A stretch of DNA of 64,000 nucleotides. Origin: Morinoia aosen. Taxonomy: Eukaryota; Arthropoda; Malacostraca; Amphipoda; Talitridae. The position numbers and the translations under genes are program-made. The stretch is from assembly GCA_030386875.1 (NCBI GenBank), contig CM059571.1, positions 25,166,355 to 25,230,354 on the forward strand, read 5' to 3'. Position 1 is the stretch's first letter. Each line of letters begins with the position of its first letter. Below the pieces are notes generated by a model. It was not told the origin of the DNA and did not search any database. It saw only the letters and a list, made by a program, of their open reading frames with translations. This document shows positions 5,853-61,086 of the stretch, in pieces.

Positions 5853-8140
5853 TGAACTGAAGTTCAATATTCAGCAAAAATTTAAAAATCAATTGCAGAA
5901 TGCAATTTTGAAAATAACGAACATTAACTGGATCGTCCTCAATATGGCTTTAAGTACTTGTGAAAATTGAGTTTGTGACTACATGGTCGGTCAGTAGCAT
6001 GGTAAAAATTCCCTCCGCGTACATTGGGGCTCACATGGCAACCAACGTCGGTTGTCTTAATTCAGTCAGTTTCATTGTGGTCATTAAAAAGTATTAGGTT
6101 TTCCTATGCGAACAATCAACTGAATTTATTTCTCGAAGTATTATAGGCTCAGATAAAAGCCCCGGTGATTGAGCGCTGTTTGTTAGGTGAATTTTTTCCC
6201 CTTCATTCAGGAGCACTTGACGCATGCATGGCAACCTCGACGGAGAACAATTACTCTCCAGGGCCTTTTATTGCCATCTGGTCGTAAAAAGTGTGCGGCA
6301 ATTAAACTTGCTCTGAATTGTTACCTGCGCTAGGAATCCTTTGGCTAGTTCCTTGACTGCAACGTGAAGTGCTGCCTCACGTTATTTTCCAGCGTTTGTG
6401 ATGTGACAAGCTCGGGAATGGTTGCACAGAATTTATCACAGTTCAGCGTCCAATTTGTTGCAATGTAATTCATTTTGTTGAGGTGAACTTGAGGGGATTG
6501 TCCTTCAGTGTACCTTGTGTTGCTTTCATCGTACTTTTAGGGCACTTGGTAAGATTTCTGACTTTCGGTCACGCGAGGATGTAAGCTACCGTCGACTTTC
6601 AACGTTGGTGTACACTTCAGGTAGTTATTGCGTTTCACGCAGGGTCATTGATATAGCTGCTCGCCCAAAAATTTCCAATGCTTTTGCATAAGTTTTATGA
6701 GTGCGGTTCTTATCAATTTTTAACGCGTTGCAGTGAAACTGTCATGCTGGCGAAGACTGTTGATCGAGAGGTCAGTTATTCTTATAACTGAGCTGTCCTG
6801 GTTTCGAGGAAATTCAATTTGAAGATTGTGACGGTTTTTAGACTAGAAATGCTGCTGAAAGTGGTCTGCATGAGAGTTTGTGATCACTTGTATCGCTCAC
6901 ATTGTGGTATTGTAAACGACTCTAAAATCAGTATTGAATTTTTTGGACGAATCACATACAAGAAGACAGCGCCTGGTTTAATTTTTCCTACTCTGCTATG
7001 TTCTTGAATGTACAAAAACATCCTCCATAATGATTGTTTAAGTGCATAGTCCTCGTTTTTACTCCTACTCTTCATTACCTAAATTCTTGAATCGACCGAC
7101 CTTCTTAACTTTTTTAGTTTTGACTTCTTTCTCTGAGACGCTTTCGTTTGTTTGTGAATTTGATTGATCGAGACGGTAACATTTCATCCCAAGTTGGCGT
7201 CACCTTGTACTGTTTAGTGGTCTTTACTATAATTGACTAAGTTATGCAGAACAATATGTTGAATGGCTAAGTTCAACTATTGTTACCTAGCAAATGTAAC
7301 TGTGGTAATGAACGTATATGAGCACCAACAGTAAATGGAATAAATATATTTGCAGCCATCAGTTTCATGATAATTTTAATATTTTCGAATGCGGGTGATA
7401 AAAGTGAATGAACACTCGTAGGTATTTTTTGCAACATGTTAAAATTCTCTTGCTTGGTTAACAATTTTTTATGTTCCACCGTGTTCGGAATTTTATTCGC
7501 AAATTGCTATGGTTTTTCAATTGAAATGTCTATTAACGTAACGAGTACAGGTACCGGGGGGTGAAACGTCTCTTATCTCAAAGGAATTTCATCCGGAACT
7601 ATACCGAGGAATTGCGATTCCGCCTCAGAGATCTCGCGTGTCTAATGATTAGGGAACTCATTTTCTTTCAGCCATGCAGCCTCAGCTGAGACTGACTTCA
7701 TTTGTGGCTGCCATGCCTGTCTCGAGACCGCCTCGCGTTCTCTGTTCAGCCTTATGCATATGTTTCTGCTTGCTCATCGCACCTTCATATTCTTCTGTGG
7801 TGTCTTGCTTGACAGCATCATTTTTGTGCAGTGACGTTACGTCTTGAGACTATATTTTTGGGCACCTCCTTATATCTCCATGAAGTATCATATTTTCATT
7901 TATGCTTGTTCTTTCGTGTATTTCATCTTTTCGGTCATCTGCCCCATCTTATTGAAACAAGTCCATTGCGTCCATTTGCGCGCCTCAGTCCTGCTCTCCA
8001 TAACGAGGCCATTACGGTCCATAACGGCACGTGTGCTCACCGGCCTGCGCCGCTCCACACAGCAGTTACGCAAGGAATGTTATTGGTGCACAGATCAAAG
8101 CTGTACGAATTGTGTTATTGTTGATGTGCTGCTAATAACA
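5853..8140. other. Unique DNA, no gene recognised
   Basis: About 2.3 kb of AT-rich sequence with only short anonymous open frames. The last 200 bases before the 20-bp array (about 7970-8060) are more GC-rich. Nothing supports an exon. Confidence 0.4.
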
Positions 8141-10960
8141 GCCACACGGAGAACTGAATGGTGATACGGAACGTAGGATGGCCACACGGAACACGGGATG
8201 GTCACACGGAACACGGGATGGCCACACGGAACACGGGATGGCCACACGGAACACAGGATGGCCACACGGAACACGGGATGGCCACACGGAACACGGGATG
8301 GCCACACGGAACACGGGATGGCCACACGGAACACGAGATGGCCACACGGAACACGAGATGGCCACACGGAACACGAGATGGCCACACGGAACACGAGATG
8401 GCCACACGGAACACGAGATGGCCACACGGAACACGAGATGGCCACACGGAACACGAGATGGCCACACGGAACATGGGATGGCCACACGGAACACGGGATG
8501 GCCACACGGAACACGGGATGGCCACACGGAACACGGGATGGCCACACGGAACACATGATGGCCACACGGAACACGGGACGGCCACACGGAACACGGGATG
8601 GCCACACGGAACACGGGATGGCCACACGGAACACGGGATGGCCACACGGAAAACGGGATGGCCACACGGAACACGGGATGGCCACACGGAACACGGGATG
8701 GCCACACGGAACACAGGATGGTCACACGGAACACGGGATGGTCACACGGAACACGGGATGGCCACACGGAACACGGGATGGCCACACGGAACACAGAATG
8801 GCCACACGGAACACGAGATGGCCACACGGAACACGGGATGGCCACACGGAACACGGGATGGCCACACGGAACACGGGATGGCCACACGGAACACGGGGTG
8901 GCCACACGGAACACGGGATGGCCACACGGAACACGGGATGGCCACACGGAACACGGGATGGCCACACGGAACACGGGATGGCCACACTGAACACGGGATG
9001 GCCACACGGAACACGGGATGGCCACACGGAACACGGGATGGCCACACGGAACACGGGATGGCCACACGGAACACGGGATGGCCACACGGAACACGGGATG
9101 GCCACACGGAACACGGGATGGCCACACGGAACACGGGATGGCCACACGGAACACGGGATGGCCACACGGAACACGGGATGGCCACACGGAACACGGGATG
9201 GCCACACGGAACACGGGATGGCCACACGGAACACGGGATGGCCACACGGAACACGGGATGGCCACACGGAACACGGGATGGCCACACGGAACACGGGATG
9301 GCCACACGGAACACGGGATGGCCACACGGAACACGGGATGGCCACACGGAACACGGGATGGCCACACGGAACACGGGATGGCCACACGGAACACGGGATG
9401 GCCACACGGAACACGGGATGGCCACACGGAACACGGGATGGCCACACGGAACACGGGATGGCCACACGGAACACGGGATGGCCACACGGAACACGGGATG
9501 GCCACACGGAACACGGGATGGCCACACGGAACACGGGATGGCCACACGGAACACGGGATGGCCACACGGAACACGGGATGGCCACACGGAACACGGGATG
9601 GCCACACGGAACACGGGATGGCCACACGGAACACGGGATGGCCACACGGAACACGGGATGGCCACACGGAACACGGGATGGCCACACGGAACACGGGATG
9701 GCCACACGGAACACGGGATGGCCACACGGAACACGGGATGGCCACACGGAACACGGGATGGCCACACGGAACACGGGATGGCCACACGGAACACGGGATG
9801 GCCACACGGAACACGGGATGGCCACACGGAACACGGGATGGCCACACGGAACACGGGATGGCCACACGGAACACGGGATGGCCACACGGAACACGGGATG
9901 GCCACACGGAACACGGGATGGCCACACGGAACACGGGATGGCCACACGGAACACGGGATGGCCACACGGAACACGGGATGGCCACACGGAACACGGGATG
10001 GCCACACGGAACACGGGATGGCCACACGGAACACGGGATGGCCACACGGAACACGGGATGGCCACACGGAACACGGGATGGCCACACGGAACACGGGATG
10101 GCCACACGGAACACGGGATGGCCACACGGAACACGGGATGGCCACACGGAACACGGGATGGCCACACGGAACACGGGATGGCCACACGGAACACGGGATG
10201 GCCACACGGAACACGGGATGGCCACACGGAACACGGGATGGCCACACGGAACACGGGATGGCCACACGGAACACGGGATGGCCACACGGAACACGGGATG
10301 GCCACACGGAACACGGGATGGCCACACGGAACACGGGATGGCCACACGGAACACGGGATGGCCACACGGAACACGGGATGGCCACACGGAACACGGGATG
10401 GCCACACGGAACACGGGATGGCCACACGGAACACGGGATGGCCACACGGAACACGGGATGGCCACACGGAACACGGGATGGCCACACGGAACACGGGATG
10501 GCCACACGGAACACGGGATGGCCACACGGAACACGGGATGGCCACACGGAACACGGGATGGCCACACGGAACACGGGATGGCCACACGGAACACGGGATG
10601 GCCACACGGAACACGGGATGGCCACACGGAACACGGGATGGCCACACGGAACACGGGATGGCCACACGGAACACGGGATGGCCACACGGAACACGGGATG
10701 GCCACACGGAACACGGGATGGCCACACGGAACACGGGATGGCCACACGGAACACGGGATGGCCACACGGAACACGGGATGGCCACACGGAACACGGGATG
10801 GCCACACGGAACACGGGATGGCCACACGGAACACGGGATGGCCACACGGAACACGGGATGGCCACACGGAACACGGGATGGCCACACGGAACACGGGATG
10901 GCCACACGGAACACGGGATGGCCACACGGAACACGGGATGGCCACACAGAGCACACAATT
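8141..10960. repeat. 2.82-kb minisatellite, 20-bp unit x 141
   Basis: Tandem array of GCCACACGGAACACGGGATG. Every unit keeps the same 20-bp register from 8141 to 10960 with no insertion or deletion that I can see, giving 141 units including decayed edge units at 8141-8180 and 10941-10960. Variants are confined to the left side (8161-9000): for example GAGATG endings in seven consecutive units (8321-8460), single-unit changes at 8521-8580, 8641, 8701-8740 and 8981. From 9001 to 10940 the 97 units appear identical. The unit is 65% GC, has two CpGs, and has six A to one T on the + strand. It contains no stop codon in any register of either strand, so all six frames are open for hundreds of codons. 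These frames are an artefact of the repeat. Confidence 0.98.
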
Positions 10961-12348
10961 GGCACTCGATGTAAGGATGCATTGCCGATGCTCGCTAGCC
11001 CCGGGATCAGTCCATGAATATTGCAATGACCCGCGAGAGTTGGCGGCTCACTCTCAGCTGTCGACTGCCCCCGCCTCTCATCTTAGCCACATTCTGCAGG
11101 TCAAATGTCAAAGCAGATGTGTTTCGTTTCTGCTTGTCCTCTTTTTATAGTCCCCCCCTCCAAACTCGAGAAATTTAATTTGAATCCAAGGGGCAAATTT
11201 TATGTTGCGTTCACTGGTTGAAATAGTAACTAACTTGGTAGCTAATAGGCTCTCTTTTATTAGGAAATCTTTGTTTTGTTACACTGTAACGTTGCGTCAG
11301 CGAAAGGCTTATAACTGTAATGCTTGAATGCGTCAAATATTATTTTAATCATGGTGACACGGGTATAAATAATTTCAAGTGCTTGTAATTTCCCTAATTC
11401 TTATAGTTAGGAGCAAAAATTCTATGGTCATGCGGTGTTACACAGTTACACCTGTTTTTTCCGGACTTCTCTGCCCACACTTTTGTAAAGGGCATCTGTC
11501 GAATTGATGGGTTGTCATTTTTTCATTCAACCATCAGTCAATCTTTCTTTCGCATCATTGAACAAGCAAGCGTTTAGTTCTGTATCTTGCTCGATACTGT
11601 GAATGGGTATTTAGTAAATTGAAGGTTTTTACATCCATCACAACTTCGAGCGATGGAACGCCTTGGCCGTAGTGATGGGCAGCAGCCACATCAAGGGGGT
11701 AAGATCCATGGGCCTCGCCGGGCCTGACCCTCAAGAAAAGTTAGTCCCTGCTCTCCAAAGCTTCTCATAAATCTTCTTGTATCGTTCACTCTGAGTTCCT
11801 TCTCAGCCGCAGCATAACTTTATCCGCGTAGATGCGAGCGCTGTTGTCTTCGTTGAACTCCAGCCCTGCCGTCTAATATTGCCTTTTTGACAGAACTGAG
11901 AAATTTTCCACTCGATGGCTAAAGAGCCATTATCGTCCGATAGAGAAGCCATAACATCCTCCTCCCTGCTGGTTGTTCAGCTAATGAACAGGCTCTTACG
12001 GAGGCAATCACAATATTGACTTGGTTAATTACTAACTGGAGCAGCGAGGCGGACTGGGGCTGCGCAAATTCTGAGTGCCACGTTAATGTTACGATTGCTT
12101 ATCGCGTAGCTACATCGTTGTTAACTCACTGACTCGGCGAGCGTGACAGGCTGTGCGGTGTTTTTGCTGTCTAAATGCTGGCGTAATTAATGATACCAGA
12201 TTCTTTTCGTTGTAGCTAGAATACGAAGATTGACAGCTCGGAAGCTCTGATGCGCAGGTTGACATTTGCACTGATGTGTTCTCGTCTTTTTTCATTTTAT
12301 CTACCCCACCACGGAATGCAACAAGTGTGTGTGTACGAGCAGTTATAG
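10961..12348. other. Unique DNA, no gene recognised
   Basis: Single-copy-looking DNA following the array. The first 200 bases continue one long repeat-derived frame to a stop at 11150. No gene, RNA or transposon is recognised. Confidence 0.4.
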
Positions 12349-12645
12349 CCCTCACGGGAAAAAATGAAATGTCACGGAATTGAAGGTTAGGAAGGTCTTC
12401 TCGCGGAAATAAAATAAGTTTTTCTTTCGTTACGAATTATGCTTTTTTGGTTCACGTCTGTTTTTTCTTACGTCTTCAAATTTATTTTGTTTCAAAATCT
12501 TTTTTAAATTTTTCTATTTCTATGCGCAAAGAGTGGGGACACAGTTTGTGCATTGATTCCCCTAACCCCAAATTTTATGCTCATGGAATTTTCTTGTTGG
12601 AAACGCCTTTTTGAGTTAGAAAGGCTTAAAATAACTCGCAATCAC
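12349..12645 (+). repeat. Family A SINE-like repeat, copy 5 (5' truncated, long form)
   Basis: Starts near the CTCCCAGGGGGAAAATG equivalent (here CCCTCACGGGAAAAAATG) and lacks the palindromic head. It retains GAAGGTTAGGAAGGTC, TTTTTTGGTTCACG, TATGCGCAAAGAGTGGGGA with ACACAGTTTGTGCAT (long-form insert), and AGAAAGGCTTAAAATAACT. It is moderately diverged. Confidence 0.7.
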
Positions 12646-17700: not shown

Positions 17701-18676
17701 TAAAGAAGCAAGAGTTTTGTATCTAAGACGAGATTTATTGTAATGCCCAGCACTTATTGCCGGAAAATGTTGGTGTTTGGACCATGCAGTTTTTCTTTGG
17801 CGGTCGAAGTATTTGGCCGTAGTTTGTCGAGTCCGGAGCAATCATGCAGAACTCTGCCGCTACGGACGCAAATTCTCCCGAAATTCTGGTGCGATTTTTT
17901 TGCACTGGTCTGAACTTACTGGCGATTGCCGAGAAGTTAGGAGCATTTTAACTCAACGATGAGTCGCAAAGTACACTTAACTGGTTGAAAATACCGTCAT
18001 CTCGAGTGGTGAGCTATGAGGGACTGGATCCTGATGTTAGTTCAAAATCAGTTAGTGACGAACACGGATTCGGGTTTGATAAAATTGCCGCTTCTGGTGA
18101 ACTCGGGCGCTTTTTGCTAGCACCCGGAAAAATCTTGACAAAGTGCGGCGCGGGAATGATTTAACATTTATACGGATATTGGAACTTTCGAAAGTGGGCT
18201 TGTTTACTTTTATACTTGAAGTTAAAGTTAACTCTGGGAATTATGAAGTAAACATTTAGCGAATTTATTTTTCGTAGTGGGAGGTTGTTTTATGTATCGT
18301 TCTTTTTTCCGGTAGCAACTGTCTTTTCATCGGCCATTCATTGAAATTAAAAGTTTCACAATTTTTTTAAACATTGAAAATGCTTTTTATTTGTTACAAA
18401 TTGTGTAGGAAATTTCAGCATGTAATAGCTATTTTTCATGCTGAAAGTTTATGCAAAATGCTATGAACCTATTTGACTCGTGAGGAACGCTGCGCTACGC
18501 ATACGCTTAAACGATATAGACAAGGAGGGAAAAAGTCCCCGACCCTGTTTTGAATTTGAAATAAACGCTGCTGATATTTGTATTGATGAGAAAATTCACG
18601 CGAAATTTAAATCTATTTCTCGCTTTCACGTTTCAGACAGTATTAGTAGCTAAAACCTTCTGTAGTATTCTGAAAA
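14731..18676. other. 4-kb stretch without recognisable genes
   Basis: Mostly unique DNA. A GC-rich patch at about 16350-16650 supports a 148-codon + strand frame (16284-16730) and an overlapping minus-strand frame, neither with a recognisable domain. A second moderately GC-rich patch lies at about 17040-17200. No transposon ends or RNA genes are seen. Confidence 0.4.
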
Positions 18677-18997
18677 ATGAGCGAACGCCAAGCTATTATT
18701 GGTCTTCATCGCGTGAAAGTATCAAATTCAACAATCCTTAAGCAGCGAAAAAAGGTCGCTCAATCTACTGTTTATGATACCGTGGCCAGATTTGAGGAAG
18801 TTGGCAATGCTAAGGATCGTCCCAGGAGCGAGTGGCCTACTACAGCTCGTCCCTGCAGCAGGCACGGGACAAAATACCGCATGAGAAACTTCGTGTCTCT
18901 GGTGGAAGTTTCAGAGAAACACTTCAGAGGGGAATCAAAGCAAAAGGAGGGACGTGGAAAAACGATATGCATCGCTCACTCGTTTCATGGAAATTAG
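18677..18997 (+). pseudogene. Tc1/mariner-like transposase N-terminal fragment
   Basis: The first ~60 residues resemble the N-terminal DNA-binding domain of mariner/maT-type transposases: MSERQAIIGLHR, a helix-turn-helix ending in STVYDTVARFEEVG, then the linker motif KDRPRSEWP, where the family usually has RPRSGRP. In a live element this domain binds the terminal repeat, and a DDD/DDE catalytic domain of about 250 residues follows. Here similarity stops soon after the linker, where the frame becomes basic and unrelated (probable frameshift), and the catalytic domain is not seen. I could not identify terminal repeats. It is a dead relic. Confidence 0.65.
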
Positions 18998-20291: not shown

Positions 20292-21196
20292 CACCGCCTG
20301 CCGTGGTGGCACATTACAACGCCTGCCGTCGTGGCAGAGAACACCGCCTGCCGTCGTGGCAGAGAACACCGCCTGCCATGGTGGCAGACTACACCGCCTG
20401 CCGTGGTGGCAGACTACACCGCCTGCCGTGGTGGCAGAGAACACCGACTGCCATGGTGGCAGACTACACCGCCTGCTGTGTGGCAGACTACACCGCCTGC
20501 CGTGGTGGCAGACTACACCGCCTGCCGTGCGGCAGACTACACCGCCTGCCGTGCGGCAGACTACACCGCCTGCCGTGCGGCAGACTACATCGCCTGCCGT
20601 ATGGCAGACTACACCGCCTGCCGTGCGGCAGACTACACCGCCTGCCGTGGTGGCAGACTACACCGCCTGCCGTGGTGGCAGACTACACCACCTGCCATGG
20701 TGGCAGACTACACCGCCTGCCGTGGTGGCAGACTACACCGCCTGCCGTGGTGGCAGACTACACCGCCTGCCGTGGTGGCAGACTACACCGCCTGCCGTGG
20801 TGTCAGACTACACCGCCTGCCGTGGTGGCAGACTACACCGCCTGCCGTGGTGGCAGACTACACCGCCTGCCGTGGTGGCAGACTACACCGCCTGCCGTGG
20901 TGTCAGACTACACCGCCTGCCGTGGTGGCAGACTACACCGCCTGCCGTGGTGGCAGACTACACCGCCTGCCGTGGTGGCAGACTACACCGCCTGCCGTGG
21001 TGGCAGACTACACCGCCTGCCGTGGTGGCAGACTACGCCGCCTGCCGTGGTGGCAGACTACACCGCCTGCCGTGGTGGCAGACTACGCCGCCTGCCGTGG
21101 TGGCAGACTACACCGCCTGCCGTGGTGGCAGACTACGCCGCCTGCCGTGGTGGCAGACTACGCCGCCTGCCGTGGTGGCAGACTACGCCGCCTGCA
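20292..21196. repeat. Minisatellite, 25-bp (24-bp variant) unit, about 36 copies
   Basis: Tandem array whose unit contains CTGCCGTGGTGGCAG followed by ACTACACCGC. Each unit can form a hairpin (CTGCC pairs with GGCAG around a 5-base loop). Most units are 25 bp. A run at about 20520-20640 is 24 bp because GTGGTGG is replaced by GTGCGG or GTATGG. Left-end units differ (CGTCGTGG, AGAGAACACCG) and right-end units carry ACTACGCCG, so variants are grouped by position. The unit is 68% GC. Long open frames over the array (for example 20191-21234 and 20223-21614) come from its lack of stop codons and change register at the 24-bp units; I do not regard them as genes. Confidence 0.96.
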
Positions 21197-22250: not shown

Positions 22251-22762
22251 TCAGTTGTGTTCAGTTTGTTGATCTGCTCATCTCTGCTCATCATCTCTGC
22301 TCATCTCCATGGTGGCAGACTACACCGCCTGCCGTGGTGGCAGACTACACCGCCTGCCGTGGTGGCAGAGAACACCGACTGCCATGGTGGCAGACTACAC
22401 CGCCTGCTGTGTGGGATGGAGCCATTCCTGTTCATCTCGTTGAAGGAGCCATTCCTGTTCAGCTCGTTGATGGAGCCATTCCTGCTCATCTCGTTCATGG
22501 AACCATTCCTGTTCAGCTCTTTGGTGGTGCCATTCCTGTTCAGCTCTTTGGTGGAGCCATTCCTGTTCAGCTCTTTGATGGAGCCATTCCTGTTCAGTTC
22601 GTTGATGGAACCAATCCTGTTCATCTCGTTGATGGAGCCATTCCTGTTCAGCTCTTTGATGGAGCCATTCTTGTTCATCTCGTTGATGGAACTATTTCTG
22701 TTCATCGCATTGGTAGAATCATACTTTTTTACGTTGTTGATTTAATCATTCCTTTTCAGCTT
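22251..22762. repeat. Minisatellite, 27-bp unit (~13 copies), split by a 108-bp foreign block
   Basis: Tandem repeat built on GGAGCCATTCCTGTTC then AGCTCGTTGAT (27 bp). The main run is 22415-22762, with degenerate copies at the right end. A single degenerate unit (GTGTTCAGTTTGTTGAT) lies at about 22255-22275, left of the foreign block at 22307-22414. Because 27 is a multiple of three, the array reads as a 9-residue repeat (for example GAIPVQLFD on the + strand) and stays open in more than one frame. There is no start context, splice signal or homologue to support coding. Confidence 0.92.
22307..22414. repeat. 108-bp exact copy of part of the 25-bp minisatellite
   Basis: By eye this block is identical, base for base, to 20376-20483 in the 25-bp array, including its private variants (AGAGAACACCGACTG, CCATGG units, and the CTGCTGTGTGG end). 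It sits inside the 27-bp minisatellite, 1.9 kb from its source. Identity starts and ends sharply at CCATGG and GTGTGG. Confidence 0.95.
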
Positions 22763-39549: not shown

Positions 39550-40830
39550 TCAGGTCATACCATAAGTCCTGTTTGTTTTTATGTTGTAAAAAGTTTGAAC
39601 TTGTATTAAAGAGGAAGGTATAAAGTTGTGATCTATTTTGCAAGACAATCACTATTGTGGTCTTTCATACACATTGCTGTGAAATTCATTTAGAGACTTA
39701 GCCATTCTTATCTTCAACTCTTGAATGAACATGGAACCTCCAACAGAACACATAAGACACACAATGCTGTTTCAGTTTCACAAAGGATGTAATGCGTCAA
39801 CAGCCGCCAAAAATATTCAAGAAGTATGGTCCAGAGGCACTTAATGTACGGACATACAGAAGATGGTTCGAAAAATTTCGAAGTGGGAATTACAGCCTCG
39901 AAGATAGCCCTCGAGAAGGTCGTCCTGTTGAGTTTGCTGCAGCTTTATTGGAGGCAACCCTTGAAGGTAATCCTGCAGTAACCTTAAGGCAATTGAGCTC
40001 TAAACTTCATGTGAGTGCAATGACAATTCAACGTCACTCAAAGAAGCTGGGAAAGAAACCCAAACTTGGGAAGTGGGTTCCTTATGACCTCTCCGCTGTT
40101 AATCGTCAGCAGCGCGTGAATGTCTGTGCATCTTTGCATTCTTGCCAACTGCGAGAATTTTTTCTGGATCAAGTTGTTACCGGAGATGAAAAGTGAATTA
40201 TGTACAGCAATCTTAAACGTCAAATCAATGGCTAGATCGACATGTAAAACCGTAATCACAACCAAAACCAGGACTCCATCCGAAAAAAGATTTGTTGTGT
40301 TTGGTAGGATATGAGAGGAATTATTCACTACGAGCTTCTTGAAAACAACCAAAGCAATCGATGCAGAACTGTACTGTCAGCAGCTGCAAAGACTAAATAC
40401 CGCTTTAAAGAATAAGCGGCCAGCTTTGGTCAATCGAAATTGCGTCATCCTTCAGCACGACATAGCGCGTCCGCTTACAGCACGAATGATTTTGGACACA
40501 ATTGAAACGCTGAAATAGGAAACATTTATGCATCCGCCCTATTCTCCTGGTATTGCTCCTTCAGACTCCCATCTCTTTAAGAGTCTAGAAAATCATTTAA
40601 GGGGAAAAACTTTGAAAGACGAAAACAACATTGAAATGAATTGCAGGTGTTTTTCGATCCAAAAATCAAAGATTTCTATGAGTGAGGCATTAAAAAATTG
40701 GGTAGTAGGTGGTCAGAAGTTGTTACTAACGATGGGGAATATGTTGTTGAACAAATGAATGTTACTTGATATGTTTTTACTCTCTGTATCATACTAATAA
40801 AAAATGAACAGAACTTATGGTACGACTTGA
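39550..40830 (+). mobile_element. Full-length but dead mariner element
   Basis: A 1.28-kb element, the usual mariner size. Inverted terminal repeats of about 24 bp: TCAGGTCATACCATAAGTCC at the left and, in reverse complement, TCAAGTCGTACCATAAGTTC at the right. A TA follows the right end (40831-40832), while the left flank has CA in its place, probably a mutated duplication. It encloses a broken transposase gene on the + strand. It lies between two family A copies, and its right flank reads directly into family A sequence (TATCAATGGGAAT), so it may have inserted into that repeat. Confidence 0.88.
39729..40759 (+). pseudogene. mariner transposase pseudogene
   Basis: In a live element this protein cuts and pastes the transposon by a DD34D mechanism in the nucleus. 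The reading frame starts near MNMEPPTEHIRHTMLFQFHK (39729) and is broken by a frameshift near 39830. It resumes with RTYRRWFEKFRSGNYSLED and PREGRP, the two-helix-turn-helix region and linker, then KLGKWVPYDL and VTGDEK (first catalytic Asp). The following Trp codon is a stop (TGA at about 40195). Further stops and frameshifts follow. The second Asp survives in LQHDIARPLTA, and the third in HPPYSPGIAPSD, where the usual SPDLAPSD has become SPGIAPSD. The last open part, 40528-40758, gives the C terminus. With several stops and frame changes it cannot make an active enzyme, though all three catalytic Asp are still readable. Confidence 0.9.
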
Positions 40831-60434: not shown

Positions 60435-61086
60435 CGGTTCTTTTTGAGACATTTGAATGGAAGTCGTTGTCCAGACGCACTTCATCCTCCTAGCGCTGCA
60501 TTTATGAGATCCGATATAGGAAAATTATGTGATATATAACCAGAAATATACTCAGTTTTGCGTGGATAGTGTTAGCATGAATAATTTACAAGTAATGCTA
60601 AAGTTTTGAAACCTTCTGTTGTGCGGTACTGTAGATATTCCTGGTTTTCCATGGATAAATTGTAACCATTATAAATCTAACTTCAAGTTTTAATACTTCG
60701 AAACGCTTGACAAAGAAATTAAAATATCTATCACTCATTGATAAGTAACCAAGTACAATTGCGGTTCTTTTTGAGACATTTGAATGGAAGTCGTTGTCCA
60801 GACGCACTTCATCCTCCTAGCGCTGCATTTATGAGATCCGATATAGGAAAATTATGTGATATATAACCAGAAATATACTTAGTTTTGCGTGGATAGTGTT
60901 AGCATGAATAATTTACAAGTAATGCTAAAGTTTTGAAACCTTCTGTTGTGCGGTACTGTAGATATTCCTGGTTTTCCATGGATAAATTGTAACCATTATA
61001 AATCTAACTTCAAGTTTTAATACTTCGAAACGCTTGACAAAGAAATTAAAATATCTATCACTCATTGATAAGTAACCAAGTACAAT
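60435..61086. repeat. 327-bp near-identical tandem duplication
   Basis: Segment 60435-60761 is repeated at 60762-61086 with a constant offset of 327 bp. I see one difference (ATATACTCAG against ATATACTTAG). Shared landmarks include CGGTTCTTTTTGAGACATTT, GCGCTGCATTTATGAGATCC and TAAGTAACCAAGTACAAT. It is either a very recent duplication or an assembly artefact. Confidence 0.95.

Follow-up and report, generated by a model that had tools for sequence, protein, structure and literature searches.

Human minisatellites have units of about 9–100 bp, and at one of them, MSY1, length mutants of 1–3 units and boundary shifts are described, which probably involve gene conversion by synthesis-dependent strand annealing (PMC2599865). 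MSY1 resembles the array reported here in that blocks of one unit type lie beside blocks of another, but differs in being located on the non-recombining Y, in being haploid and in having been measured in sperm and blood (PMC2599865). The present array, by comparison, is one assembled allele from an unrelated animal. Amongst crustaceans, the genome of Daphnia pulex shares with the one studied here the possession of long arrays of short units, including an imperfect repeat of a 17-bp unit that reaches 3,259 bp; however, three very similar 17-bp types account for hundreds of bp per Mb in Daphnia and thus constitute a genome-wide family (PMC3152781), unlike the 20-bp unit described below, which appears to be private to one locus. 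The Atlantic cod is similar to the present genome in its unusually high tandem-repeat density, with 21 % of tandem repeats heterozygous in the sequenced animal and the long ones resolved by PacBio reads; it differs in being a vertebrate, and the abstract of that work describes no 2-kb, perfectly uniform block of a 20-bp unit (PMC5241972).

The array lies within a 64,000-nt stretch of the Morinoia aosen assembly (the window), which corresponds to positions 25,166,355–25,230,354 of contig C16. The assembly comprises 1,990,973,590 bases in 29 contigs, and C16 extends over 62.2 Mb, so that the site of the array is internal to its contig. Read unit by unit, the 20-bp unit GGCCACACGGAACACGGGAT occurs in 141 consecutive copies at 8140–10959, all in one register and with no indels, and 118 of these match the consensus exactly (Table 1). 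TRF finds the same array at 8176–10947 (period 20, 138.6 copies), in agreement with the exact period over 141 units that an earlier note on this DNA had reported; its further claim, made by eye, that 97 units carry no substitution holds for every unit of the uniform block. When periodicity is assessed base by base, the exact 20-bp repeat extends from 8989 to 10947, a length of 1,959 bp. Between the degenerate edges there are 138 units, 20 of which carry one or two substitutions, and all of these are confined to units 4–43. Like variants are found next to each other, in units 10–16 and again in units 30–31. Beyond the last unit the resemblance is lost, with 11 of the 20 bases that follow the array (from 10960) mismatching the unit.

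Table 1. Features of the 20-bp array and its flanks, with other loci mentioned in the text
Feature	Position	Strand	Remarks
Left flank	7540..8139	.	single-copy in the genome at the sensitivity of the search
Degenerate left-edge units (two)	8140..8179	+	5 and 6 of 20 bases mismatched; unit-by-unit reading
Variant-rich left block, units 3–43	8180..8999	+	20 of 41 units with 1–2 substitutions
Seven-unit run with shared G17A change	8320–8459		within left block
Uniform block, units 44–140	9000..10939	+	97 identical units
Degenerate right-edge unit	10940..10959	+	5 of 20 bases mismatched; array stops abruptly
Right flank	10960..11500	.	single-copy in the genome at the sensitivity of the search
Arrays with one-ended mismatches	window 20592–21195; L052 9171–9536		compared by thirds, by eye
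COX1 matches, mitochondrial type	C26, C28, C29		C26, two in opposite directions; C28, two head-to-tail about 18.4 kb apart; C29, one

With regard to the distribution of the unit, a 28-base probe allowed up to three mismatches has 138 matches in the window, compared with none in 100 dinucleotide shuffles. The search of other scaffolds that the earlier note had proposed, performed with this probe over the whole genome, also returned 138; the matches listed all fall in the array, and the equality of the two counts implies that all 138 do. Genome-wide, there were no reverse-strand matches, and none for a backwards control. The left flank (query 7540–8180) found only itself, and the right flank (query 10920–11500) was matched in full by itself alone, the other matches listed covering bases 1–31, 1–35 or 1–49 of the query, which are array units; the search skips very common words, and could thus overlook an element of very high copy number. 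A private unit and single-copy flanks agree with a locally born array; as in minisatellites, the head-to-tail units occupy a single locus and have a period inside the 9–100 bp range. In dispersed or centromeric satellites the unit recurs in numerous arrays or in very long ones, which the genome-wide probe did not find. Nor did these searches show the repeated flanks or terminal inverted repeats of a mobile element, the only inverted pairs in 6500–12500 being four of 14–16 nt at 86–88 %. Four loci recovered by similarity, one on C24, two on C6 and one on C15, were considered as members of a dispersed family and rejected: their main arrays have periods of 16/32, 19, 9 and 7 bp, and by the equal genome-wide and window counts none of them is matched by the probe. 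The sequence GGAACACGG is an example of the short pieces common to these arrays; the loci were selected by similarity, and no claim is attached to it. Outside this genome, a 33-base probe had no exact match in viral and prokaryotic contig collections, and a literature search directed mostly at crustaceans listed no title about this array.

Comparison with other parts of the genome places the locus amongst many tandem arrays. Across 18 random stretches (156 kb), 43 arrays with a period of 6–100, at least three copies and a TRF score of at least 50 cover 10.4 % of bases; 10 of these are at least 500 bp long and 4 at least 1 kb. Their density is patchy, as just four of the 18 stretches (L043, L045, L047 and L056) contain all ten arrays of at least 500 bp. 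Two of these stretches, L047 and L056, each hold four such arrays within 8–10 kb, whereas 14 of the 18 have none. The array displays an A–T strand skew of 0.70 and a GC content of 0.64, with seven G, six C, six A and one T in the unit, and two CpGs. The window without its main arrays has 38.9 % GC and a CpG observed/expected ratio of 0.98. The earlier note had drawn attention to this composition, namely the GC-rich unit with its two CpGs, the excess of A over T and the AT-rich surroundings; it is, however, ordinary amongst other arrays of the genome, for which skew spans −0.84 to 0.96 and GC 0.30 to 0.68 over 19 rows (eight of these represent loci chosen for their similarity, and a single array is counted at three periods). 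The length, period and skew of the array are unremarkable in this genome; it is uniformity that stands out. Amongst the 43 sampled arrays the longest exact run measures 407 bp and the next 350 bp; the sampled stretch ends inside the array that holds the 407-bp run. The locus is an outlier in uniformity because its exact run of 1,959 bp is 4.8 times this maximum.

An outlier of this kind might have been produced during assembly or polishing, had the assembler written a uniform block in place of a true array that is more varied, or of another length, whether shorter or longer. Assemblers can miscount exact periodic runs of 2 kb, and the present assembly is not fully clean, as is seen from the bacterial-looking cox genes on contig C27. 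Against this, the window is free of N and the array of indels over 2.8 kb, a length shorter than a typical long read. Moreover, the variant units of the left third were kept, where blanket consensus smoothing would have erased them. We regard an artefact of this type as very unlikely; it is the chief doubt that attaches to the uniform block.

The clustering of the variants is also far from random. When 20 variants are placed at random among 138 units, the mean length of the longest clean run is 21.7 units, and none of 100,000 draws exceeds 66, compared with the 97 observed. This test is free of the fault of a direct comparison of the two sides (20 of 41 variant units on the left, 0 of 97 on the right; Fisher p = 4.4 × 10−13), for which the p value is too small because the split point came from the data.

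We consider it likely that the array is a single-locus, non-coding minisatellite that turns over by a few units at a time, with a right-hand block that derives from one recent unit. A short local sequence would first have been duplicated in tandem, after which the array would have grown and shrunk by a few units per step, through replication slippage, unequal sister exchange or conversion. The right two thirds would descend as a whole block from one recent unit, and would therefore still be without substitutions. Turnover would have been lower in the left third and at the edges, where older variants persist, and the seven-unit G17A block may represent a smaller duplication burst. The adjacency of like variants, together with the degenerate edges, is as might be expected of nearest-neighbour duplication.

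This process was simulated neutrally in arrays of about 120–160 units, with block gains and losses at random places and with mutation. The full pattern was taken to be a run of identical units that makes up at least 70 % of the array, the rest being at least 40 % variant and containing at least 15 variant units; these thresholds were chosen to match the observed array, and snapshots within one simulation run are non-independent. Turnover was uniform along the array and in steps of 1–3 units, as measured at human MSY1 (PMC2599865). At 0.001, 0.003, 0.006 and 0.01 mutations per event, a run of at least 70 % arose in 277, 149, 64 and 12 of 384 snapshots, and the full pattern in 16, 26, 19 and 8 (2–7 %), whereas at 0.02 neither appeared (0/384). 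An earlier, coarser simulation of 1–3-unit steps gave 15/192 at 0.003, 4/192 at 0.01 and 0/768 at 0.03–1.0 mutations per event. With blocks averaging 8 units, the full pattern was seen in 1 of 1,920 snapshots under uniform turnover and in 4 of 1,920 under polar turnover, and two larger step models in the coarser simulation yielded 1/1,152 and 0/1,152. As modelled, turnover in small steps is sufficient provided that mutations are few in relation to turnover events, but only a minority of snapshots show the full pattern, at best 26/384 for uniform turnover.

The confinement of variants to the left could also be read as the mark of a polarised, hypermutable minisatellite, in which conversion or expansion at the right end is driven by a recombination initiator next to that edge. 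Mutation is biased to one end in some human minisatellites, and turnover simulated at the right end, again in steps of 1–3 units, likewise reproduces the pattern (31, 31, 13, 1 and 0 of 384 at rates from 0.001 to 0.02). These frequencies are, however, about equal to those of uniform turnover; the latter reproduces the pattern by itself, and polarity is therefore not needed. At MSY1, end-biased mutation was a non-significant tendency (PMC2599865). A single allele cannot reveal polarity, and amongst 17 other arrays inspected by thirds, by eye, only two have mismatches mostly at one end (Table 1). We hold polarised turnover to be distinctly unlikely. The same distinct doubt applies to its fuller version, by which the right edge would be a live, one-sided expansion hot spot. 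The array would then be an invertebrate minisatellite of the hypermutable kind, observed no more than a few hundred thousand generations into its activity, or far fewer, and the left third would preserve its fossil record.

Amplification of one unit in a single large step, for example by rolling-circle copying followed by reinsertion, would fit equally well with 97 identical units that come to a sudden stop one unit short of the right flank. Such a saltatory event is unnecessary, however, as stepwise turnover in simulation also yields runs of this kind; we judge it unlikely.

Under the preferred reading, that of a minisatellite turning over in small steps, the absence of substitutions places a bound on age. 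On the premise of a common origin of the 97 units, the 95 % upper limit is 3/(1,959 × μ) generations; with an assumed mutation rate (μ) of 3 × 10−9 per base per generation, the uniform block would be no older than about 5 × 10^5 generations and could be much younger. It would thus be young, but not extreme. The earlier note had called for either very recent expansion or continuing homogenisation. This is the right class of explanation, but 'very recent' goes beyond the data: it is not forced, both because zero changes bound the age only at about 5 × 10^5 generations and because small-step turnover simulates such blocks when mutations per event are few. In our judgement this is an ordinary single-locus minisatellite, one block of which is unusually young or was homogenised recently.

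As to function, the array most likely has none. It contains long open frames on both strands, reaching 946 aa on the forward and 971 aa on the reverse strand in the ORF list, as a repetitive coding exon would. In two of the six frames silent changes are slightly more numerous than expected (9 of 22, where about 6 would be predicted); over all six they number 3–9 of 22 against 6–7 expected, without a clear excess in any one frame, in what is a small sample of non-independent substitutions. In three of the six frames, moreover, a variant unit makes a stop. Another array of the window (20292–21195) similarly has long frames on both strands, and in the 20-bp array the frames are long because the unit happens to have no stop codon. 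A coding exon is scarcely credible on these grounds. No host gene was found around the array by comparison of 30 ORFs of at least 94 aa (out of 88 listed of at least 90 aa, and all outside the array itself) with Pfam, a scan by which short exons would be missed. The only ORF above a curated Pfam cut-off, at 39756–40193, contains a Mos1-type helix-turn-helix (E = 5.4 × 10−7) and is a distant mariner-type fragment; a few weak matches below the cut-off were ignored. A further ORF, at 18674–18994, appears mariner-like by eye and has no Pfam match. The window has no Rfam match at the gathering score and no tRNAs.

Folding was considered as a possible driver of expansion. For 80 nt of the array, z scores against dinucleotide shuffles, which destroy the array periodicity, were −4.7 (forward) and −2.4 (reverse) for RNA, and −5.1 and −3.8 for DNA. 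Hairpin-driven expansion was nevertheless rejected: shuffled units that were tiled anew fold as well in 34 of 200 cases on the forward strand and 99 of 200 on the reverse, and the folding of the array is thus not special.

Taken alone the array matters little, minisatellites being common in this genome. Its private unit, clean block and single-copy flanks would make it a good marker, and a clean site for measurements of how minisatellites turn over in an invertebrate. Of more general bearing is how densely tandem arrays occur in the part of the genome that was sampled.

Several other features of the window and assembly may be recorded. Within an array of a 25-bp unit, 108 bp (20376–20483) recur without any difference, even in their variant units, at 22307–22414, some 1.9 kb downstream. 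The copy adjoins an array of a 27-bp unit at 22415–22704, such that a piece of one minisatellite lies beside another. Further along, 60435–61086 is a tandem duplication of 327 bp with 3 mismatches over the 327 bases compared, and is probably recent. Elsewhere in the assembly, contig C27 contains many COX1-type matches at about 55–72 Mb, most of which have no in-frame stops under the standard code, and a stretch of this contig (L034) harbours a bacterial-looking coxB–coxA pair; this cox region probably represents bacterial DNA that has become part of the assembly. Three further contigs hold five COX1 matches of mitochondrial type, with 8 TGA codons (Table 1), and C22 has another, partial COX1 with 9 TGA and one TAA. 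These matches are either nuclear copies or mitochondrial contigs, and translation of the one on C29 with the invertebrate mitochondrial code meets no stops.
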